The translations under genes and the position numbers were made by a program. Shown here piece after piece: positions 5,041-16,956 of a stretch of DNA of 64,000 bases; within the stretch, counting starts at the first letter, position 1, and each line of letters begins with the position of its first letter. The notes under the pieces are model-generated. The model searched no databases. It was not told where the DNA came from and worked only from the letters and a program-made list of their open reading frames with translations. This DNA comes from Croceicoccus pelagius (lineage in GTDB: Bacteria; Pseudomonadota; Alphaproteobacteria; Sphingomonadales; Sphingomonadaceae), in assembly GCF_001661915.1 (NCBI RefSeq), contig NZ_LYWY01000034.1, positions 186,001 to 250,000 of the forward strand. Direction: 5' to 3'.

Positions 5041-5424
5041 ATGAAACGCTTTACCACCTGCATCGCCGTGGTCGGCCTTATCGGTTGTTCGCAAACACCC
5101 GAAAACAGTAAAGCAGTCCCTTCCCCCGAAGTCGCGGGGTTCGAGGCCGTGCCCGGCACTTATGGCGTCGGCGACGAGACCACGATCTACGCCAAGACCC
5201 GCCTCGCCGCGGATGGCACGTACGTGGACATGAACGACAGCGGCCCCGTCGATAAGGGCACCTGGCGCGCGGACGGCGCGACGATGTGCTTCGATCCCGA
5301 AGGTGACGGAGAGGACCGGCAGGAACGCTGCTGGATCAACGGCCCGCCCGATGCCGACGGCAGCTTCCTGTCCACCCGCGACGACGGCAGTCAGTCCTAC
5401 CGCGTCACACCGATCAGCGAATGA
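5041..5424 (+). CDS. Small hypothetical lipoprotein
   Basis: 127 residues. The start at 5041 gives a clean lipoprotein signal (MKRFTTCIAVVGLIGC), with LIGC as lipobox. The mature part is acidic and contains a lipocalin-like run of short strands (TRLAADGTYVDMNDSG, GTWRADGATMCF) with a Cys pair that may form a disulfide. Similar stand-alone domains are common in sphingomonads but I do not know a function. Confidence 0.75.
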   Translation: MKRFTTCIAVVGLIGCSQTPENSKAVPSPEVAGFEAVPGTYGVGDETTIYAKTRLAADGTYVDMNDSGPVDKGTWRADGATMCFDPEGDGEDRQERCWINGPPDADGSFLSTRDDGSQSYRVTPISE

Positions 5425-5430
5425 CTGCGC

Positions 5431-5829
5431 CTAGCTGCGCGCGAAAAACGTGAACCCCATCGCCAGATAGGCGCAGAACCAGAAGCCCGCATCGATCAGC
5501 GCGATCACGCGCGGGTTCCGCTGATGCAGGTAATTGGTCCAGAGAGCGGGAATCACGAAGAACAGCGCGACGCCCCCGCTCATCATCGGGTAGAGCCACC
5601 ACTTCGACGGATCGGACAGCCGCGCGAACATGTGTCCCAGCATCGCGGCAGAAACCAGAAGCAGCAGGAACGTGAAGAACATCGTCGTGAATGGCTTGCG
5701 CCGCACTTCCAGACCGCCCGGCCCTGCCATCACCGCCATCGGGCGTGAGAAGAGCTTGTACCAGACGCCCGCCACGACAATGGCCGCAAATGCCGCGAGA
5801 AACACGCCAATCCAGTCGACAGGACCCAT
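5431..5829 (-). CDS. DUF1761-like small membrane protein
   Basis: 132 residues from the ATG at 5829 (MGPVDWIGVFLAAFAAIVVAG); an upstream in-frame ATG at 5883 would add 18 polar residues without a membrane segment and looks wrong. Four hydrophobic helices are visible. The first helix is followed by VWYKLFSRPM, as in DUF1761 proteins. Convergent with the preceding lipoprotein gene, 6 nt between stops. Function unknown. Confidence 0.75.
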   Translation of the reverse strand: MGPVDWIGVFLAAFAAIVVAGVWYKLFSRPMAVMAGPGGLEVRRKPFTTMFFTFLLLLVSAAMLGHMFARLSDPSKWWLYPMMSGGVALFFVIPALWTNYLHQRNPRVIALIDAGFWFCAYLAMGFTFFARS

Positions 5830-5986
5830 CCGAACTCCGTTTGGCTGATCCCGCTGTCCGGGCGGGAAAGGTTGCCTCTGCAACCGGCCCTACACGTAAT
5901 ATGCGCGGACTTTAAGGGCGCCTCCGCCCCGCTGCCGATAACGAACCGCTGGCGCGCACGGCTCGTCGCGTGTATCGGCGCGCCAA

Positions 5987-7354
5987 ATGGCTCAAGAAAT
6001 CGCTCCCTCCCCCAAAGTCGGCATGGTCAGCCTCGGCTGTCCCAAGGCGCTCGTCGATTCCGAACGCATCCTTACGAAGCTGCGCGCAGACGGATATTCC
6101 ATGAGCGCCGATTACGAAGGCGCCGACGTCGTGCTGGTCAATACCTGCGGCTTCCTCGATTCCGCGAAAGAGGAAAGCCTCGACGCCATTGGCGAGGCGA
6201 TTGCCGAGAATGGCCGCGTTATCGTCACCGGCTGCATGGGCAACGAAGCGGAACTGATCCGCGCGAAGTATCCCGATGTCCTGGCCGTCACCGGCGCGCA
6301 CCAGTACGAACAGGTGGTCGAGGCGGTGCATGAGGCTGCCCCCGCCGCGCGCGGGCCTTTCGTGGACCTGATCCCGCAGCCCGACATCAAGCTGACGCCG
6401 CGCCACTACAGCTATCTGAAGATTTCCGAAGGCTGCAATCACTCCTGCGCGTTCTGCATCATCCCGGACCTGCGCGGAAAGCTGGCCAGCCGCCGGATCG
6501 ATGCCGTCCTGCGCGAGGCGGAAAAACTGGTCGCAGCGGGGACCAAGGAACTGCTCGTCATTTCACAGGACACCTCGGCCTATGGCGTCGACGTGCGCCA
6601 TGAAGAGCGGATGTGGAAGGGCCACCCCGTGCGCACGCACATGACCGACCTTGCCCGCGAACTGGGCAAGCTGCGCACGCCGCAGAACGAGGTTCCGTGG
6701 GTGCGCCTGCATTACGTCTATCCCTATCCGCACGTCGACGCAGTCATCCCGCTGATGGCCGAAGGGCTGCTGACGCCCTATCTCGACATTCCGTTCCAGC
6801 ACGCCAGCCCGTCGGTCCTGCGCGCCATGAAGCGCCCGGCGAACGAGGCGAAGGTGTTCGACCGGCTGAAGTCGTGGCGCGAGATCTGCCCCGACATCGC
6901 GGTTCGTTCCAGCTTCGTTGTGGGCTTCCCCGGAGAGACCGAGGACGATTTCAAATACCTGCTCGACTGGCTGGAAGAAGCGCAGCTCGACCGCGTTGGC
7001 GGCTTCCGCTTCGAACCGGTTGAAGGCGCACAGGCCAATGCCCTGCCCAATCCGGTGCCCGAAGAGGTGAAGGAAGAGCGTTACGCCCGCCTGATGGAAG
7101 TGACCGAGCGGATCAGCGCGGCCAAGCTTGCCGCCAAGGTCGGCCGCACCATCCCTGTCATCATCGACGAAGTCGGCGAGCCGGACGAGGACGGCGACAT
7201 CGGCGCGACGGGCCGCAGCCAAGCCGATGCGCCCGAAATCGATGGCAACGTTTTCCTGCGTGACGTGCCCGAAACGGCCAGCCAGGGCGACATCGTCAAC
7301 GTCACGGTCGAGGACGCCGACGCCCACGACCTGTTCGGCGTCATTGCACCCTGA
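5987..7354 (+). CDS. rimO: Ribosomal protein S12 methylthiotransferase RimO
   Basis: 455 residues. N-terminal UPF0004 domain with cysteines C18 ([10 protein letters not shown]), C54 and C83; radical-SAM motif C150-x3-C154-x2-C157 ([10 protein letters not shown]); C-terminal TRAM domain. The sequence [12 protein letters not shown] is diagnostic of RimO rather than MiaB. It uses two [4Fe-4S] clusters and SAM to methylthiolate the conserved aspartate of ribosomal protein S12. Ends at a bidirectional hairpin (7360-7389). Confidence 0.96.
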
Positions 7355-7359
7355 AACTG

Positions 7360-7389
7360 GAAGGGCGGAGCCTTACAGCCCCGCCCTTC
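7360..7389. terminator. Bidirectional hairpin between rimO and M28 peptidase gene
   Basis: Perfect 9-bp inverted repeat gaagggcgg / ccgcccttc around a 12-nt loop, located between two convergent genes. T-runs are weak on both sides, so termination efficiency is uncertain. Confidence 0.6.
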
Positions 7390-7394
7390 TCACC

Positions 7395-8996
7395 TTACTT
7401 GTTCGGATCGGCGACCTTGAACGGGTCGGTGACCTTGGGCTCTGTCGGAATACCGGCGCGGGGTAGCTCCTCGTCGCTGTTCGCCGCCTGCCACAGCATT
7501 CCGGCCATCACGACGGATGCCTGACGCAAGTCTTCGGCGCGCAGGTGGTCCAGCGTGTCGAGGTTCGAATGGTGCACGCGGCTGAAGTAGTCCAGCGGGT
7601 CCTGGATGAACTGATAGGCCGGAAGCCCGATGCGCTGCAGGTAGACGTGGTCGGTCCCGCCGGTTTTGCCCGCCACCACCCGGTCTGCGTCCATCGAGGC
7701 GAAAGGGGCCAGCCACTTTGTCAGCAGCGGGGTCACGCCATAGTCGCTTTCGGCATGGATACCGCGAAATCGCCCGCCGCCGTTGTCCATGTTGAAGTAG
7801 GCCTTCATGTCGTCATAACCCGGCTTCTTCGTCACCGGCCACGCGCTGCCCCACGAACGGAACTGCGCCATCGGGGCAAGGCTGGTGTCCACGGGTCGCG
7901 TCGCGAGATGCCGCTCGATATAGGCACGCGAACCCAGCAGGCCCTGCTCTTCGCCCGACCACAGCGCGAAGCGGATCGTGCGCTTGGGCTTGGGCAATTG
8001 CGTCAGGATGCGCGCCGCTTCCATCACCACGATGGTGCCCGCGCCGTTGTCCGCGGCGCCGTCGCCTGCGAACCAGCTGTCGAAGTGCGCGCCGGCCATG
8101 ACATAGCCTGCTTTCGGATCGCGCCCCTTGATGTCGGCGATGACGTTTGCCGCCTTGGTGTCCTCGGTATCGAACGATGCGTCGATAGACAGAGAGATCG
8201 TGGGCGCTTTGCCGGTCTGCGCCAGACGGACGAGGCGGCGGTAGTCTTCCTGCGCCAGTTCCATGGCCGGGACCGCAAGGATCTCTCCGCCGCGGAAGTC
8301 ATAACCTTCGCCGTGGACCAGCATCCCGTCGCGGTACGACATGGCGACCATCGCCTGCGCGCCTTCTGCCTTCAGGAATTCGCCCAGCTTCTGCTTGAAC
8401 TCGGCGCTGTCCAGCCGGTCTTCCCATGCGTGCGGGTCGTAAGTTTCTTCCTTGAAGGCGTCCTTCTTGGAAATGTCCTCGCCGGTATAGCGCTTGAAGA
8501 CCGGACCGTCCGATTCGCTGGTCTCGCCGGGCATCGAGATCAGCACCATCTTGCCGGAAAGCTTCCCGCGCCATTCGGCGAAATGCTCCACCTTGCTCAT
8601 CGGCGCGACGACGACTTCGCCGGTGATCACACCGTTCGTCGGCGGCGACCATGCGCGGGGCAGCGCCGTCATGCGCAGCGGGCGGGGGGAGACCATCGTG
8701 GCCGACCAGTCGACAAGGTCCCAGCCGTAACCGAACTCGAACTCTTCGCGGTGAATGTTGGTCAGGCCCATTTTGGCGAACTTGGCGATCGCCCAGTCCT
8801 GCGCGCGGTCCATGTTGGCCGAGTTGGTAAGGCGCGGGCCGATGCCGTCCAGCAGTTCGGATGCCGTAACCATGGCCTCGGACTGCTGCGTCCCTTCCTC
8901 GATGATGAAGGCAATGTCGTCCTTCTCTTCCGCCGCGGCGATCACGGGGTGGCTGGCGCACAGGAACAGGCAGGCAGCGGCAAGGCGCTTCGTCAT
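7395..8996 (-). CDS. Secreted M28-family zinc aminopeptidase/carboxypeptidase
   Basis: 533 residues. Signal peptide 1-21. A PA-like insert (about residues 110-270) precedes the peptidase core. Di-zinc ligands are visible: H304 and D306 (AGAHFDSW), bridging D316 (AADNGAG), E349-E350 (WSGEEQG) with the first as general base, D404 (NMDNGGG) and H450 (GGTDHVY). Architecture fits glutamate-carboxypeptidase-like M28 enzymes that trim peptides in the periplasm. Convergent with rimO. Exact substrate cannot be told from sequence. Confidence 0.92.
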   Translation of the reverse strand: MTKRLAAACLFLCASHPVIAAAEEKDDIAFIIEEGTQQSEAMVTASELLDGIGPRLTNSANMDRAQDWAIAKFAKMGLTNIHREEFEFGYGWDLVDWSATMVSPRPLRMTALPRAWSPPTNGVITGEVVVAPMSKVEHFAEWRGKLSGKMVLISMPGETSESDGPVFKRYTGEDISKKDAFKEETYDPHAWEDRLDSAEFKQKLGEFLKAEGAQAMVAMSYRDGMLVHGEGYDFRGGEILAVPAMELAQEDYRRLVRLAQTGKAPTISLSIDASFDTEDTKAANVIADIKGRDPKAGYVMAGAHFDSWFAGDGAADNGAGTIVVMEAARILTQLPKPKRTIRFALWSGEEQGLLGSRAYIERHLATRPVDTSLAPMAQFRSWGSAWPVTKKPGYDDMKAYFNMDNGGGRFRGIHAESDYGVTPLLTKWLAPFASMDADRVVAGKTGGTDHVYLQRIGLPAYQFIQDPLDYFSRVHHSNLDTLDHLRAEDLRQASVVMAGMLWQAANSDEELPRAGIPTEPKVTDPFKVADPNK

Positions 8997-9148
8997 CTAA
9001 CTCTCCGATAGTGGGGGATTATTCGTCAGGCATTAGTAGGCAATGAAACTAATGCTGCGGCGGCGAAGGTAAAGTGAAAATCCACGTCATGCGGACATCG
9101 TCCACATCGGATTTGACCGGCAAGCCGCCACAAGGCAGGAGAGACGCA

Positions 9149-9910
9149 ATGACCCAGCCAAGCCGCATCTGGACCGCAGCCCTCGTCATCATCGGCGACG
9201 AGATCCTGTCGGGCCGCACCCAGGACAAGAATATCTCCCAGATTGCCACGTGGCTTGGCATCCAGGGCATTCGCCTGCGCGAAGTGCGCGTCGTGTCGGA
9301 CGACATGGACGCGATTGCCGAAGCGGTGAATACCCTGCGTGCGCGCAACGATTATCTGTTCACCACCGGCGGCATCGGGCCGACGCACGACGACATCACG
9401 GTCGACGCGATTTCGGCCGCGCTGGGCGTGGAGGTCATCGTCCACCCCGATGCCCGCGCGATTCTTGAGAGATATTATGCCGACAAGGGCGGGGTCAACG
9501 AAGGCCGCCTCCGCATGGCGCGCACGCCTGCGGGCGCTTCGCTGATCCCCAACCGCTATTCCGGCGCGCCGGGCATCCATGTCGAAAACATCTACGTCAT
9601 GGCCGGCGTGCCGCACATCACGGCGGGAATGCTCGACGCACTGACCGGATCGCTCGAAGGCGGCGAACCGCTGATCAGCGAGACCGTTGGCGCATGGGTG
9701 CCCGAAAGCGAGATCGCGGGACTACTGCTCGAACTCGAACGCGCCCACGAAGGGTCACAGATCGGCAGCTATCCCTTTTTCCGCGAAGGCCGCGTCGGCG
9801 CGAATTTCGTAGTCCGTTCGACCAGCGAGGACACGATCAAAAGCGTCATCGACAGCCTTTGCGAAGGCCTTGGCGAAATGGGCTACGACTTCACGCCGGG
9901 CGGCATCTGA
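9149..9910 (+). CDS. CinA/MoaB-like molybdopterin-binding domain protein
   Basis: 253 residues from the ATG at 9149, which has a caggagag ribosome binding site; the frame opens 25 codons upstream without one. The N-terminal ~170 residues are the MoCF-biosynthesis (MoaB/Mog) fold, with VIIGDEILSGRTQDKN and TTGGIGPTHDDIT as in the CinA N-terminus. The C-terminal nicotinamide-nucleotide amidase half of full CinA (~400 aa) is absent, so this is the short competence/damage-inducible A type. Such stand-alone proteins may act as ADP-ribose or cofactor pyrophosphatases; this is inference from CinA. Stops 3 nt from the convergent GT4 gene. Confidence 0.88.
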   Translation: MTQPSRIWTAALVIIGDEILSGRTQDKNISQIATWLGIQGIRLREVRVVSDDMDAIAEAVNTLRARNDYLFTTGGIGPTHDDITVDAISAALGVEVIVHPDARAILERYYADKGGVNEGRLRMARTPAGASLIPNRYSGAPGIHVENIYVMAGVPHITAGMLDALTGSLEGGEPLISETVGAWVPESEIAGLLLELERAHEGSQIGSYPFFREGRVGANFVVRSTSEDTIKSVIDSLCEGLGEMGYDFTPGGI

Positions 9911-9913
9911 TCC

Positions 9914-11080
9914 TCAGGCGCGGGCTGCCGGGAACGGCAGGACGCTGATCCCCCGCGCCAATTCAACCTCGCGCATCAGGCATTCGGCCCAGTCGTTCAT
10001 GCAGCGATCGATGGCGAAGTCCCCTACCCGCCCGCGCTGCGCGCGTGGGGGACGCAGCGTTTCGAGCTCGATAGCGATGGACGCGGCGAGGTCCGCGACA
10101 TCGTTCGGGCGGGCAAGGGTTCCGAACCGGCCATGGCCAAGCATTTCGGCATTTCCGGTCGGGCAATCCGTGGCAACGATCTTCACTCCGCAGGCCAGCG
10201 CCTCGAGCAGCACATTGCTCGCCCCTTCCCAGCGCGAAGGCATGACGAAGACGTCGGCGGCCCGGATCAGCGGGAACGGGTTGTCGAGATAACCCGCAAA
10301 GCGCACGCGCCGTTGCAGGCTCAACTTCTGAGCCATTAGCCGCAGGTCCTCCTCCTCCGGCCCGGTTCCGGCGATCACCAGCCGCAAGTCGGGCCACCGC
10401 GCCAGCGTTTCGATCAGCAGGTCGAAACCCTTCTGAGGGGCCAGCCGTCCCATCGCAACCAGCAGCGGCCCCTCACCCGGCGGCAGGTCGGGCATGGCCG
10501 ATCCCAATGCCGCCATGCGGTCGATTCGTGCGATATCGACGCCATTGGCGATCACGTCGATCGCGGCGCTCGTCCCGCTGGCCTCGATCTCGGGGCGCAG
10601 CGCTTCGGCGACGGCGACGATGCGGTCCGCAGCCAGATATTTCGACAGCTTCACGAAACCTGGCTCGCGCCCCGGCCGGCGCGAGGAATTGCTGGCGCGC
10701 AGGACCAGCCGCATCTGCCCGCGCAGGCCCGAAAGCCAGGCCGCGCCGCTGACCGGCAAGTGCGAATGGTTGCCGCCGCTGACCAGAACGGCAGGCCGGT
10801 GGAGGCGGATCATACGGGCGAGCGCCGGAACAGCCAAAGTCAGCGCGAACGCGCGCGGCAGACCGGCCCCGACGTTGCACGATCGCACCGGAATGTCGGA
10901 AGGCACACGGGCGCGCATCGGGCCCTCACCGCTGACCGACCACAATTCGACGGCCAATCCGCGTCTGCGCGCAGCAACGGCGATCTCGATCGACTTGGCA
11001 ACCGTGCCGCTGGCGCGGAAGTCGTGGTTCACGATCACGACATCCGGGCCCGATATGGTTCGGAAGAGTTCAGTCATCAT
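9914..11080 (-). CDS. GT4-family glycosyltransferase
   Basis: 388 residues, GT-B fold. The C-terminal half carries the GT4 signatures: nucleotide-sugar loop VAMGRLAPQKGFDLLIETLA, GTGPEEEDL, and the E-x7-E region (SRWEGASNVLLEALACG). The N-terminal half has VVNHDFRASGTVAK and an ASNSS...PGREPG acceptor-side segment. It transfers a sugar from a nucleotide donor, probably to a lipid-linked or surface glycan; specificity is unknown. Its ATG overlaps the stop of the upstream COG4705-like gene by one base (TGATG), so the two are translationally coupled. Confidence 0.9.
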   Translation of the reverse strand: MMTELFRTISGPDVVIVNHDFRASGTVAKSIEIAVAARRRGLAVELWSVSGEGPMRARVPSDIPVRSCNVGAGLPRAFALTLAVPALARMIRLHRPAVLVSGGNHSHLPVSGAAWLSGLRGQMRLVLRASNSSRRPGREPGFVKLSKYLAADRIVAVAEALRPEIEASGTSAAIDVIANGVDIARIDRMAALGSAMPDLPPGEGPLLVAMGRLAPQKGFDLLIETLARWPDLRLVIAGTGPEEEDLRLMAQKLSLQRRVRFAGYLDNPFPLIRAADVFVMPSRWEGASNVLLEALACGVKIVATDCPTGNAEMLGHGRFGTLARPNDVADLAASIAIELETLRPPRAQRGRVGDFAIDRCMNDWAECLMREVELARGISVLPFPAARA

Positions 11081-11862
11081 CAGTGCACCCGTTCACCCGT
11101 GCGCGATGCGGCGCGCTGCGGAAGGAAAAAGATGAGAAGGACGATTCCCGCGCCCAGCACCGCCGATGCGGCAGCGCGGCCGAGTTCCAGCACGCCATGC
11201 GCCACAGGCTTGTCAAGGAAGTCGCCCACGACTGCGCCCAGCGGGCGGGTCAGGATGAAGGCGGCCCAGAACAGCGCAACCTTGTTGGTCGCGGTGAAGA
11301 ACCACAGCGCCGCAACGAAGGCGAGCGCGCCACCAAAGATCAGCGCCGCACCAAGGTAGCCCGGCCCGCCGTCTGCGACCCAGTCGCCCAGCGCCGTGCC
11401 CAACGTCTGCGACAGCGTGATGGTGAGCCAGTAGAACGCCTCGACCTTCACGGTCCGCACCGACAGCACCGATACGGTCCCCGTCGTGAAGTGCCATGCC
11501 GCGATGACCCCGAGCACGAGCGCCAGCAGCAACAGCGACCCGCCCAGATAACCGATGCCCAGCGAACGCGTGGCAAAGTCCGCCATAGTCGTGCCCGCCG
11601 TGGTCGATGCGACGATAGTCGCCCAGTAGAGCGTGGGGTGGAAGCGGGGCGCCCTGATCTGCGCGATGACGAGCGCGATCAGCAAGGCGGCGAAGATGGC
11701 CGTGCCTATGAGGTATCCGAGGTTGAGCGACATGCTGACGGTGTCGCCCGCCGTCTCGCCGAAGGTCGTGGCCAGGATCTTGATGATCCAGAAACCCAGC
11801 GTGATCGCGGGGACCTTGGTAAGGTCGGCCGTGGTCTCGCAGGACAAGGACGATGTCGTCAT
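11080..11862 (-). CDS. COG4705-like polytopic membrane protein with four internal repeats
   Basis: 260 residues from ATG 11862; a longer frame extends upstream to 12108 but would cross the divergent regulator. Roughly eight transmembrane helices. Four internal repeats of the type T/S-x-G-x(3-4)-D ... GYLxG can be seen around D40 (FGETAGD), D95 (AGTTMAD), D160 (LGTALGD) and D214 (LGAVVGD), which would place four acidic residues in the membrane. Transporter or channel activity is possible but not shown. Co-translated with the GT4 gene downstream and divergent from a LuxR-type regulator. Confidence 0.82.
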   Translation of the reverse strand: MTTSSLSCETTADLTKVPAITLGFWIIKILATTFGETAGDTVSMSLNLGYLIGTAIFAALLIALVIAQIRAPRFHPTLYWATIVASTTAGTTMADFATRSLGIGYLGGSLLLLALVLGVIAAWHFTTGTVSVLSVRTVKVEAFYWLTITLSQTLGTALGDWVADGGPGYLGAALIFGGALAFVAALWFFTATNKVALFWAAFILTRPLGAVVGDFLDKPVAHGVLELGRAAASAVLGAGIVLLIFFLPQRAASRTGERVH

Positions 11863-11920
11863 GGCAGGCTCGCAGCAGTTGGTTGAGACCCACGACCTAG
11901 AAATCGATGGCATTGCGCTC

Positions 11921-11958
11921 CATAAGCAGGCGCTGTCTGCGATAAGCACACGCTTATG
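11921..11958. promoter_or_regulatory. Inverted repeat between divergent membrane-protein and LuxR-type genes
   Basis: cataagc (11921-11927) and its exact complement gcttatg (11952-11958) are separated by 24 nt, with a third half-site gataagc at 11941-11947. It lies centrally in the 135-nt divergent spacer, a natural place for an operator of the LuxR-type protein encoded alongside. Inference from position and symmetry. Confidence 0.45.
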
Positions 11959-11997
11959 ACGCACCGATGACGGCCGTTTCAGGGATGGGAGAGCCGC

Positions 11998-12501
11998 TTG
12001 AAAGCAACCCGCCGATTGCCACCGCTGCGCTTTGTGGCCGCAGTCGTCGCGCTGCAGGCCGCCGCTGCGATCTACTTTTTCGTCGACGGCGTGAACGACG
12101 TACTGCACGCAGGGTCAGACATGACCACGCTGGAGGCATCGCTCGAAGCGCTCGTCGCGCTAGGGCTGCTGGCAGGGGTCGTTCTGGGCGTCTTCGCGAT
12201 TCGCGCTGCCGCGCGTGAGGCGCACGAGACGGAGCGGGCTCTGGACCTTGCCCGCGGCGCGCTGGCCGAAGCTATCGACCTGGAATTTGCCCGCTGGGGC
12301 CTGACGGCATCGGAAGCCGACGTCGCGCTCTTCGCGCTGAAGGGCTGCACCGTCGAACAGATCGCGACGATGCGCGCATCCGCGCAAGGGACTGTGCGCG
12401 CGCAGCTAAGCCAGGTCTATGCCAAGGCGGGCGTCAATTCGCAGGCCGCGCTGATGGCGACGATCATGGAAGACCTGCTTCCGCGCCGGGACAGTCAGTG
12501 A
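11998..12501 (+). CDS. Membrane-anchored LuxR-type HTH regulator
   Basis: 167 residues from TTG 11998, preceded by gggagag; no in-frame ATG occurs earlier, and the first internal ATG (12121) would delete the first helix. Two N-terminal hydrophobic segments (about residues 11-33 and 47-68) flank a short loop, then a helical linker ([18 protein letters not shown]), then a GerE/LuxR-type helix-turn-helix at about 100-160 ([26 protein letters not shown]..., [16 protein letters not shown]). There is no receiver or autoinducer domain. It likely senses something at the membrane and regulates the divergent COG4705-GT4 pair through the dyad upstream. Confidence 0.82.
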
Positions 12502-13959: not shown

Positions 13960-15303
13960 ATGGGTAAGGCGGAAGAAAACGGTGACCGCATCGGTCGGAT
14001 CATGCTGTTTGCGGCAGGGTTCACGCTGGCTGGCCTTGCCGGTGCGCTCGGCATGTCGCCGTTCAACGAACTGGCAAGCGGCGCGCGTGCCACGGTCGGT
14101 CTGATAAGGGAGGTATCCTCGGACCGCCCGACGATGCTGATGCCTATCGCCTATCCCGGCGAGCAGCTGGTCACCAACCACAAAGAAGCGATGCAGCCAG
14201 GGCTGACCTTGATCCAAGGGATCATGCCGGGTGGCAATCAGGTTCGACTGATCTCTGCGGACGGGCGCGAACTGCACCGATGGCGAGCCGATTTTTTCAA
14301 GATATGGCCCGACGCGCCTGAGGTGTTTGGTCGCGACCCTATACCGGCCACTGAAAATCACTATTTCATTCAGGGCATGCACCCCTTCGCCGACGGCTCG
14401 CTGCTCGTCAGCTTCGGACAATTGGGCACGGCCAAGCTGGACCGATGTTCCAACCTCGTGTGGCGCACCGACCGTCAAACACACCACTCGATCACGGCCA
14501 CAAAAGACGGAAAATTCTGGATACCCGGTGCAATCTCCGTTTTCGACACGTCAGAAGACCTTTTTCCTGCTGGACTAAACGCGGAAAAACTACACGCCAT
14601 GGCGGGAGACAATTTGTCCAAGGCCTTCAATAACTCGGTGCTCTTGGTAAACGCGGAAGGCATTGTGGAGCGTGAGCTTTCCGTCCTGCGCGCCGTCAAG
14701 GAAGCAGGCCTTGAGAACGCGCTCTACACCTCGCTTCAGGAAGTGCCTCAGGATCCGATCCACCTCAACGACATCGAAATCGTGACGGAGCCGCTAGCCG
14801 CGAAGATCGAGGGCGTGGAAGCAGGCGATCTGCTGTTGTCCATCCGCGAGATGAACATGCTCGCCATCGTCGATGACGAAACCGGCGAATTGAAATGGGA
14901 AAAGCAGGGGCCATGGCTCCGTCAGCACGACCTCGACATCGCGCCAGATGGCAAGATCGAAATCTTCAACAACAGGTCCAAGATCATTGGGGATTGGGTC
15001 AAAGGCAGTCAGATCCTGGCATTTGATCCCGCAACGGGCAAAGTCGACGTGCTATACCCTGTCGGCAGCAAAGATAATTTCTACACGTACATCATGGGCG
15101 CGCACCAGGCGCTGCCCAACGGCAATCGCATGATCACCGAATCCACCGCCGGCCGCGTCTTCGAAGTTACACCGGCGGGCGAGATCGTGTGGGATTACCG
15201 CCTCCCCTACGACGGGGAAGTCGCATCGCTCTTTTCATACGCCATCCGCGTTCCGGAAGATTTCTACCAAGGGGAAGACCTGTCATGTCCGTCACGAACC
15301 TGA
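13960..15303 (+). CDS. Arylsulfotransferase (ASST)-family protein, membrane anchored
   Basis: 447 residues. One N-terminal membrane anchor (about 13-33), then a periplasmic beta-propeller-like region with repeated 'D-G-K-x-W/I' blades (ITATKDGKFWIPG, DIAPDGKIEIFNN, ALPNGNRMITES, TPAGEIVWDY). Candidate active histidines lie in RQTHHSI, PIHLND, RQHDLDI and GAHQALP; ASST enzymes use a histidine that is transiently sulfated to move sulfate between phenolic esters without PAPS. First gene of a four-gene operon with tight overlaps; the next gene starts 19 nt before this stop. GC content appears lower than in neighbouring ribosomal genes, which fits later insertion. Confidence 0.8.
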   Translation: MGKAEENGDRIGRIMLFAAGFTLAGLAGALGMSPFNELASGARATVGLIREVSSDRPTMLMPIAYPGEQLVTNHKEAMQPGLTLIQGIMPGGNQVRLISADGRELHRWRADFFKIWPDAPEVFGRDPIPATENHYFIQGMHPFADGSLLVSFGQLGTAKLDRCSNLVWRTDRQTHHSITATKDGKFWIPGAISVFDTSEDLFPAGLNAEKLHAMAGDNLSKAFNNSVLLVNAEGIVERELSVLRAVKEAGLENALYTSLQEVPQDPIHLNDIEIVTEPLAAKIEGVEAGDLLLSIREMNMLAIVDDETGELKWEKQGPWLRQHDLDIAPDGKIEIFNNRSKIIGDWVKGSQILAFDPATGKVDVLYPVGSKDNFYTYIMGAHQALPNGNRMITESTAGRVFEVTPAGEIVWDYRLPYDGEVASLFSYAIRVPEDFYQGEDLSCPSRT

Positions 15304-15524
15304 AGACCGCCGCGCTTGCGGCCCTCACGCTCGCTCTGTTCACTGCCGCCAGCCCGGCCCATGCCTACATGGGCGCAGGCGCAGGGCTTAGCGCGATCGG
15401 ATCCGTGCTGAGCTTTATCGGCGTGGTCCTGCTGATGATTGTCGGCTTTGTCTGGTACCCGGTAAAGCGCCTGCTTCGCCGCAAGCGCGCCGATGCCGTC
15501 GTGGAAGACAACGGAGCCGAGTGA
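15285..15524 (+). CDS. Small membrane protein with AYMGAGAG motif, sulfotransferase operon
   Basis: 79 residues; ATG 15285 has a ggggaag ribosome binding site and overlaps the previous stop. Layout: signal-like helix (about 7-25), AHA cleavage-like site, the motif AYMGAGAGL at 28-35, a second helix (about 38-58), then WYPVKRLLRRKR and an acidic tail. From memory, small proteins with A-Y-x-G-x-G-A-G and W-Y-P-x-K-R are found in other proteobacteria beside surface-glycan or sulfotransferase genes, but I cannot verify this here. Function unknown; a scaffold or assembly factor for membrane enzymes is possible. Confidence 0.78.
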   Translation: MSVTNLKTAALAALTLALFTAASPAHAYMGAGAGLSAIGSVLSFIGVVLLMIVGFVWYPVKRLLRRKRADAVVEDNGAE

Positions 15525-15907
15525 TGCTGGCCGCCTACCTTGCCACATGCGTCCTGTTTGCAGCCGCATTCGCCCTTCTGGGGATCGTGGGGCGCACGAT
15601 GGCGATGCTTGCAACCATGCGCGCTTCGGTCGCCGTAATGCGCAACTCGGCGCTGGATGATCTGGCCAAGGAAAAAGCGGTTCAGAAGGGCTCGATCGAG
15701 CTTCTCGGCCATCTCGTCGTCGTCATCGCTATGTTGTCGGTGGCTTTTGGTGTGGCCGCGGTTCCGGCGCTGGTCGGAAGCTGGGCGGCCCTGTTCGGGC
15801 TTGAGCAATTCGTGGCCTTCACGCTGCGGCCCGACATTCTTCTCGGCACGATCGCGGTCTTTGCAGGCGTCGCGGTGCTGATCCGCAAGAGAAAGGCGCA
15901 GGCCTGA
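15524..15907 (+). CDS. Three-helix membrane protein of the sulfotransferase operon
   Basis: 127 residues from ATG 15524 (a GTG at 15521 is also possible). Its start overlaps the preceding TGA (gTGATG) and its own stop overlaps the next ATG (TGATG), so translation is coupled on both sides. Three hydrophobic helices (about 3-23, 60-88, 104-121) surround a charged cytoplasmic-looking loop (NSALDDLAKEKAVQKGS) and it ends RKRKAQA. I do not recognise a family. Its strict linkage to the 79-aa protein and the sulfotransferase suggests a membrane complex. Confidence 0.75.
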   Translation: MLAAYLATCVLFAAAFALLGIVGRTMAMLATMRASVAVMRNSALDDLAKEKAVQKGSIELLGHLVVVIAMLSVAFGVAAVPALVGSWAALFGLEQFVAFTLRPDILLGTIAVFAGVAVLIRKRKAQA

Positions 15908-16956
15908 TGGCAGTCGAGGACTACAACTGGGCCGACAAGCTGGTTCACAAGCTGGCCTTCGGGACCAAGGTACCGCAGGATGTGCTCTGCGACATCGAGG
16001 CACAGCTCTACGCAGACCAGATTTCCCGCCAGAAGGCGATGGCTCCGATCTTCATCACCTCGCTGCCGCGCGCGGGCACGACCGTCTTGCTCGAAGTTCT
16101 GGCGCGGCACCCCGCGCTCGTCGCGCACAGCTACCGCGACATGCCCTTCGTGCTTTCGCCGATCATCTGGCGCCGCGTGTCGAGCCGCTTCCACGTCGCA
16201 CAGGACGCGGCAGAGCGCAGCCACGGCGACGGGCTGATGATCAATGTCGACAGCCCAGAGGCTTTCGAAGAAGTGCTCTGGCTACGCGAGTTCGGCGACC
16301 ACTACACAAAGACCGGCATCGCGACGTGGGACCGGCTACCTCCAGAATTCGTGAAGACTTTCCGCGAACACATGAAGGCGCTGATCGCCTCGCGCGGGGT
16401 GGAGCACGGCGGGCGCTACCTGTCCAAGAACAACGCCAACATCGCGCGGTACGGCGCGCTGGCGCGCGCCTTGCCCGATGCAAAGTTCCTGCTGCCGCTG
16501 CGCCATCCGCTGGATCAGGCCGTGTCGCTGATGAAACAGCACAAGCGCGCGCTGGCCGAACATGACGCGACGCCCTTTGCCCGCGCCTATACCCGCGATG
16601 TCGGGCACTTCGAATTCGGGCGCAATCACCGCCCGATCCTGTTCGACAGCTTCGCGACCGACGGGCTGGACCCCGAGCATGTCGACTACTGGCTCGCCTA
16701 CTGGATCGCAGGCCATCGTCAGTTCGAATCCGACATGCGCGCGGTCGTCTTGGACATGGGGGCGCTGACCAATGGGGCCACGCCGGTCGAGACCGTGTTC
16801 GACAGGCTGGGCCTTGCCCCGTCGGCGGAAGCGCTGGCCCATGCCAGCGGCCTGCTTCGTCCCCTCCCCGAACGCCGCGATGATGCTGGCGCGGACGAGG
16901 ACTTGCTCAAGACCGCGACCGAGCTGTTCGAGACGATCCGGGCAAGAGCGATCTAA
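15907..16956 (+). CDS. PAPS-dependent sulfotransferase-family protein
   Basis: 349 residues, no signal peptide. The 5'-phosphosulfate loop is at 52-59 (SLPRAGTT), followed by helix [10 protein letters not shown]. The 3'-phosphate-binding segment is the later [20 protein letters not shown]. These are the two PAPS-binding signatures of the Sulfotransfer_3 type. It would transfer sulfate from PAPS to an alcohol or sugar hydroxyl in the cytoplasm. Its ATG overlaps the stop of the membrane protein before it. Pairing of a PAPS enzyme with a periplasmic ASST-like protein suggests a two-step sulfation route; substrate unknown. Confidence 0.87.

Follow-up and report, generated by a model that had tools for sequence, protein, structure and literature searches.

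A recurrent four-gene membrane module pairing a PAPS-type sulfotransferase with an ASST-family protein in Croceicoccus pelagius: a possible two-step sulfation relay

Introduction

The sulfate donor 3'-phosphoadenosine 5'-phosphosulfate (PAPS) is made in the cytosol, and therefore a bacterial sulfate-transferring enzyme located outside the cytoplasm needs another donor. The question of where such a donor could come from is raised by a group of genes in a 64,000-nt stretch of the Croceicoccus pelagius genome (contig NZ_LYWY01000034.1, positions 186,001 to 250,000), called the window below. Four genes on the + strand, at window positions 13960–16956, encode an arylsulfate sulfotransferase (ASST)-like protein, a small membrane protein (S79), a second small membrane protein (M127) and a PAPS-type sulfotransferase. 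According to the open reading frame list of the window, successive genes overlap by 19, 1 and 1 nt, which confirmed to the exact coordinate the same-strand, overlapping arrangement described in an earlier note on this DNA.

Little is known of the donors and acceptors that bacterial ASSTs use in nature, according to a 2026 review (PMC13426309). An ASST that shares an operon with a single dedicated PAPS sulfotransferase and two conserved, unnamed membrane families gives a concrete handle on natural ASST substrates. The analyses presented here showed that the module formed by the four parts is real, recurrent, conserved and widely spread. With a little more belief than doubt, we interpret it as a membrane-bound two-step sulfation relay, in which the sulfotransferase would load a phenolic carrier inside the cell and the ASST would discharge it outside. 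If this is true, the relay would be a general route for surface sulfation in diverse bacteria. In the following, the window genome is G000, the other genomes of its order and phylum carry G labels and the compared loci carry L labels.

Co-occurrence of the four parts

The order survey covered 147 genomes. Sulfotransferase matches were found in 23 of them, eight strong (E 4e-40 or better) and 15 weak (E 2e-6 or worse). S79 was present in nine genomes, namely all eight with a strong sulfotransferase match and G073; the probability that 8/8 fall within 9/147 by chance is about 2e-12, a value that ignores the relatedness of the genomes. ASST matches occurred in 10 of the 147 genomes, comprising seven of the eight with a strong sulfotransferase match as well as G019, G086 and G101, whose ASSTs are distant forms. 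No ASST match was found in G040, the remaining genome with a strong match, where the contig is only 3952 bases long. Among the 15 genomes with weak matches, neither S79 (0/15) nor an ASST match (0/15) was found.

The survey across bacteria was based on a sulfotransferase profile search of genome contigs, from which the best 80 of 357 relatives were used. Three repeats were dropped, two of them (L111 and L112) on the contigs of L039 and L042 and the third (L102) with the gene lengths and spacings of L095, although identity was not measured, which left 77 loci. Within 6 kb of the sulfotransferase, on either strand, S79 was found in 76/77 loci and an ASST in 71/77. Of the six loci lacking an ASST, two (L074 and L124) start at the edge of a contig. 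The titles of the survey records name Alphaproteobacteria, Gammaproteobacteria, Planctomycetota, Cyanobacteria (Okeania, Leptothoe) and Bacteroidetes, as well as Desulfobacteraceae, Myxococcota, Omnitrophota, Nitrospina and Longimicrobiales.

The same association was seen in the reverse direction. The S79 profile gave 16 matches over 398 genomes of the phylum, three of which were already known (G000, G025 and G039), and up to about 10 kb was examined around each of the 13 new places. A sulfotransferase was located near all 13 and an ASST near 11. The ASST was absent near the S79 match of G243, a weak and partial one that the frame scan did not recover, and at L157, where the sulfotransferase is encoded on the opposite strand. 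Moreover, seven plasmid records with a sulfotransferase had an ASST nearby in 7/7 cases, S79 in 6/7 and a relative of M127 (family M) in 6/7, the seventh carrying a different membrane protein, Mbig. The annotation of these records gives 'hypothetical protein' for S79 and for M or Mbig where it stands alone.

For the analysis of M, the 77 loci were combined with the window and seven loci of its order, giving 85. A profile of N-termini taken from fused sulfotransferases showed M fused to the sulfotransferase in 30/85 loci and encoded as a stand-alone protein in 52/85; the remaining three had none. The fused sulfotransferases, which occur in many loci, are about 490 aa long and carry the M-like domain at their start. 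The co-occurrence of both small families with both enzymes, which the earlier note had proposed to check, proved to be recurrent. Away from a sulfotransferase, the M profile had no match in the loci scanned.

Two or three ASSTs were found within 8 kb of a single sulfotransferase in 7/85 loci, and two sulfotransferases of this family in 0/85. Such an asymmetry would follow if a single carrier served more than one acceptor, and it lends support to a shared intermediate, although gene duplication alone could explain it and the ASST profile is possibly the broader of the two.

Families and conserved residues of the two enzymes

The window sulfotransferase matched PF13469 (Sulfotransfer_3) at 1.8e-15 and 58.2 bits, and the ASST-like protein matched PF14269 (Arylsulfotran_2) at 1.6e-36 and 126.6 bits; the cut-off is 27 in both cases, and the family identities proposed previously were thus upheld. 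The SLPRAGTT loop is present in the sulfotransferase and the AYMGAGAG motif in S79, as the earlier note had read them. Over the 85 sulfotransferases, Arg55, Gly57, Arg199 and Ser207 are invariant (85/85), while Thr58 is conserved in 83/85 and Thr59 in 84/85. The eight-residue spacing of Arg199 and Ser207 is that of the Arg–Ser pair at the 3'-phosphate site in known sulfotransferases, a motif of the SULT family. The window enzyme has both the PAPS-binding loop and this pair. Its closest named relative, among the best 80 of 357, is from Croceicoccus sediminis (85 per cent identical).

The ASST has a hydrophobic N-terminal segment at about residues 14–32, after a charged start, as judged by reading. 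Its score against PF05935 was 15.4 bits, below the cut-off of 24.2, and PF05935 was unmatched in its own genome. For the residue analysis, the window ASST was aligned with 64 others, each of at least 380 aa and with E <1e-60, one per locus. Six residues, His176, His268, Asn270, Ser294, His323 and Asn338, were invariant in all 65 proteins, and Arg296 was conserved in 61/65.

The comparison of the ASST profile with solved structures placed His323 (in a QHD motif) at chain position 436 of E. coli AssT (3elq), in a match that is weak (whole-sequence E 0.0014; i-Evalue of the stretch 0.46). Entries 9kf4 and 9kf6, named 'Sulfotransferase', were matched better than AssT (4.7e-15). The other active-site residues of AssT are His252, His356, Asn358 and Arg374, for which His176, His268, Asn270 and Arg296 are candidate counterparts. 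Proteins of PF05935, sought in order to map these other residues, were found in 0/115 genomes of the class. His436 itself is the catalytic histidine of E. coli AssT according to the review cited above (PMC13426309).

Genome G028 has a further ASST of this kind outside the operon (L040, 8825–10177), beside genes that resemble those of methionine synthesis by reading.

The small membrane proteins

Window S79 had no Pfam match above noise (best E 0.12). Among its relatives the best values were 0.007 and, for S79 of L157, 0.0016, the models being unrelated. All 84 copies share an invariant Tyr, two invariant Gly residues and an invariant Pro (84/84). An Ala directly precedes the invariant Tyr in 80/84 copies, and another Ala is found two positions further back in 71/84. 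Signal peptidase cleaves after an A-x-A pattern, and because the Ala residues fit this rule, the invariant Tyr is likely to be the first residue of mature S79.

An S79-like protein (AHAYLDAGTG) was also detected at L046 (397–654), where no sulfotransferase or ASST match was present in its 12 kb. This protein suggests that small membrane proteins of the kind form a larger family. At L157 (3675–7867), S79 is followed by a frame of 643 aa that resembles the alkaline phosphatase superfamily by reading and then by Mbig, while the sulfotransferase lies on the opposite strand. At this locus, a different envelope-type enzyme seems to stand in the place of the ASST.

M127 likewise had no Pfam match in the window copy, and the best value among the M relatives was 0.0066, to an unrelated model. 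However, the profile built only from the N-termini of fused sulfotransferases found window M127 at 3.3e-19. This match and the invariant residues of S79 show protein-level conservation of both small reading frames, a point on which the earlier note had made its proposal depend. As a single-sequence query, M127 was significant in only 4/147 genomes of the order, and in the other four operon genomes of the order the same slot holds a frame of 125–156 aa. By reading, the pattern of hydrophobic stretches and basic loops in M127 suggests a cytoplasmic C-terminus, which fits the fusion to a PAPS enzyme.

Two of the three loci without M, L043 and L045, have Mbig instead. It is about 155 aa long in these two and about 240 aa in L147, L148, L149, L152, L153, L156 and L166. 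A profile based on L043, L045 and L147 detected Mbig in 7/13 reverse-survey loci, L147 itself included, and in the plasmid locus L166; at L157, Mbig is not located between S79 and the sulfotransferase. M was found in 3/13 reverse-survey loci. L150, L158 and L159 match neither profile, and other membrane-type frames occupy the gap. The comparison of M with Mbig by hhalign detected no relation (probability 1, E 0.052), and Mbig of L147 had no Pfam match. The assignment of M or Mbig to Oxa1/EMC3-type membrane insertases, suggested by eye, was not supported by the Pfam scans and was abandoned.

Operon layout and genomic surroundings

The coordinates of the operon genes and of two neighbouring genes are presented in Table 1. 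M127 has an alternative GTG start at 15521, upstream of the ATG, which gives 128 aa. By reading, the operon is flanked on the opposite strand by rplA- and rplK-like genes on the left and by nusG- and secE-like genes on the right. In the clustering of neighbouring proteins, the nusG-, rplA- and rplK-like clusters comprised nine compared loci each, and the placement beside ribosomal-type genes is common to some relatives.

Table 1. Positions of the operon genes and of two neighbouring genes in the window
Feature	Position	Strand	Basis
ASST-like protein, PF14269, 447 aa	13960..15303	+	Pfam scan; N-terminal hydrophobic segment ahead of propeller-type domain
S79, small membrane protein, 79 aa	15285..15524	+	AHA-Y-MGAGAG, then one hydrophobic helix and basic tail (by reading)
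M127, 127 aa	15524..15907	+	Three hydrophobic stretches (by reading); K-E motif in loop after first stretch
PAPS-type sulfotransferase, PF13469, 349 aa	15907..16956	+	Pfam scan; invariant residues
Group 1 glycosyltransferase	9914..11080		Sole glycan gene recognised between 10000 and 21000
DUF347 repeat protein	11080..12108		PF03988, 2.7e-56; function unknown; adjoins the glycosyltransferase

The largest neighbour cluster outside the operon was ABC-transporter-like, with 11 loci, and all others had nine or fewer. The Pfam scan of neighbours covered 89 of 316 frames (200–700 aa, 66 loci), picked mainly as shared between loci and therefore biased. Glycosyl transferase family 2 was the commonest family among them (10/89), which is weak evidence given this selection. 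Glycan genes were also located near L042 (a Wzy_C ligase), L066, L087 and L121 and the plasmid loci L160, L162 and L163, and a surface glycan is a plausible acceptor.

Genes of sulfate activation were found beside some copies. In the Myxococcota bin L060, the region 5168–11095 encodes a PAPS_reduct/CysD-type domain, a CysN-type protein with adenosine 5'-phosphosulfate (APS) kinase, an ASST, S79 and a fused M–sulfotransferase. The CysN-type/APS kinase frame ends at 7958 before its stop and the ASST frame opens at 7963; a sulfatase-family gene (PF00884) follows the fused M–sulfotransferase at 11195. At L066, an ATP sulfurylase–APS kinase is about 6 kb away. APS kinase is present in the window genome, so PAPS can be made there. 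As a marker it is otherwise uninformative, because it occurs in 139/147 genomes.

Proposed mechanism and alternative explanations

Gene order, co-occurrence, the fusion of M with the sulfotransferase and residue conservation are supported directly. On this basis, three steps can be proposed. The sulfotransferase, anchored by M127 at the inner membrane face, would use PAPS to sulfate a membrane-soluble phenolic carrier, as its family and residues suggest. The sulfated carrier would then get to the outer face within or beside the membrane parts formed by S79 and M127. Finally, as the family and the invariant residues of the ASST suggest, the histidine of the membrane-anchored enzyme would accept the sulfate and pass it to an alcohol, most probably one on a glycan or glycolipid of the cell surface, and the carrier would be returned. 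The two-compartment route put forward in the earlier note has thus gained a recurrent module, retained key residues, the M–sulfotransferase fusion and the loci with several ASSTs, while its carrier, transport and acceptor are still what we infer. The relay is also favoured by the PAPS-forming genes at L060 and L066, by the glycan genes near some copies and by the precedent of the caprazamycin enzymes Cpz8 and Cpz4.

Several observations weigh against a relay of this kind. The S79-like protein of L046 occurs without sulfotransferase or ASST matches, so S79 may partner envelope enzymes more generally. The loci L092, L100, L108 and L122 have no ASST nearby though they are not at a contig end, and the plasmid locus L162 has no S79. 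The distances of the ASSTs and of the sulfotransferases correlate moderately over 71 loci (Spearman 0.38, a value reached in 0/1000 permutations). In the window, the operon adjoins ribosomal-type genes and the nearest recognised glycan gene is 2.9 kb off; similarly, few or no glycan genes are present near the plasmid loci L161, L164, L165 and L166 (4/7). The clustering of neighbours showed no carrier-forming gene among the conserved ones. The type III polyketide synthase (PKS) family PF00195 is unmatched in the window genome and above the cut-off in only 2/8 operon genomes of the order (G025 and G039), with a weak match in G060.

On these PKS counts, a carrier made by a type III PKS was rejected, and the carrier probably differs from that of caprazamycin, which is described below. 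The family has matches in 35/147 genomes of the order overall.

The relay could be one case of a more general sulfate-export machine, an extension that we regard as rather unlikely. In the cytoplasm, activated sulfate would be placed on a widely occurring lipid-soluble phenol, such as an isoprenoid quinol or a related compound, and handed through an S79/M complex to one or more periplasmic ASSTs that decorate surface glycans, in a manner comparable to the use of lipid-linked sugars in glycosylation. In a bolder variant, the invariant Tyr of S79 would itself be the phenol that carries sulfate on the outer side. The same Tyr in the S79-like protein of L046, where a sulfotransferase match is lacking, speaks against a role of this residue in sulfate transfer only.

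Among the alternatives to the two-step relay, the best placed is a single-step system, to which we give a small part of our belief. The M-tethered sulfotransferase would sulfate a lipid or lipid-linked glycan at the inner face, and the ASST-like propeller and S79 would bind the product or help its export without catalysis. The M–sulfotransferase fusion suggests such a membrane substrate, an O-antigen ligase or glycosyltransferases are found near some copies, and the four loci without a nearby ASST away from contig ends are in line with it. However, six ASST residues invariant in 65/65 proteins, with His323 placed on residue 436 of AssT, are not expected of a mere binding protein.

Next in rank, and improbable, is the explanation that the ASST uses or desulfates environmental aryl sulfates while the sulfotransferase serves a separate acceptor, the two being linked through sulfated surface material. 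ASSTs take many outside aryl donors in vitro, and their natural substrates are mostly unknown, according to the available part of the review (PMC13426309). A tight gene unit that recurs in many lineages with near-complete co-occurrence argues against separate roles, and several ASSTs beside one sulfotransferase point to a shared intermediate.

The operon could also make the sulfated carotenoids of Erythrobacter relatives, although we find this very improbable. Carotenoid sulfates and a sulfation activity of cell extracts were described in Erythrobacter flavus, with the gene unexplored in the part of the paper available (PMC6627997), and the closest sulfotransferase relative among the best 80 of 357 comes from Croceicoccus sediminis. 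The system is, however, also present in records of Planctomycetota, Okeania, Desulfobacteraceae and Omnitrophota, and this spread over phyla makes carotenoid sulfation unlikely as its general role. No record titled Erythrobacter was among the best 80 of 357 relatives, which is weak evidence, as the coverage of Erythrobacter genomes was unchecked.

A chance grouping of unrelated genes, allowed by the earlier note, deserves next to no credence: ASSTs do occur apart from the operon (G019, G086 and G101, and second copies in G028 and G060) and weak sulfotransferase matches do occur without S79 or ASST in 15 genomes, but the co-occurrence counts, the reverse survey, the M fusions and the plasmid records of other organisms contradict it.

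Comparison with known systems

The closest parallel is the caprazamycin pathway of Streptomyces, in which Cpz8, a PAPS sulfotransferase, produces the sulfated triketide pyrone that is the donor for the ASST Cpz4 (PMC4257720 and PMC6731281, in the parts available). Cpz4 prefers sugar hydroxyls (PMC13426309). Both systems combine a PAPS sulfotransferase with an ASST in one cluster, and the window ASST would, like Cpz4, be PAPS-independent. The carrier of the Cpz enzymes is supplied by a type III PKS, which the window genome lacks as a match. The window operon differs, moreover, in its two extra membrane families, in the N-terminal hydrophobic segment of its ASST, in the fusion of M to the sulfotransferase at many loci and in its spread over many phyla, as opposed to one antibiotic pathway.

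To our knowledge, the synechan pathway of Synechocystis has no ASST partner. Its likeness to the proposed role lies in the sulfation of a bacterial surface glycan by sulfotransferases (PMC8205485 and PMC13125312, in the parts available). AssT of E. coli CFT073 resembles the window ASST in the aligned histidine, by the weak match given above. AssT is annotated under PF05935, for which the window protein scored below the cut-off. AssT is paired with DsbL/DsbI, of oxidative folding, in the available account (PMC13426309), whereas the window ASST is encoded with a sulfotransferase and membrane proteins. The Erythrobacter carotenoid sulfates come from a related group of hosts, with a sulfation activity to which the source cited assigns no gene (PMC6627997); a role confined to carotenoids is at odds with the spread of the operon over phyla.

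The statement of the earlier note that no described system unites these four parts holds insofar as none was found in the open-licence literature, judged by titles, beginnings of abstracts and passages, but it has to be narrowed for the enzyme pair, which is known from caprazamycin. The two-step principle, a PAPS sulfotransferase feeding an ASST, is already known from that pathway, and its membrane-bound four-part form would be new within the literature searched.

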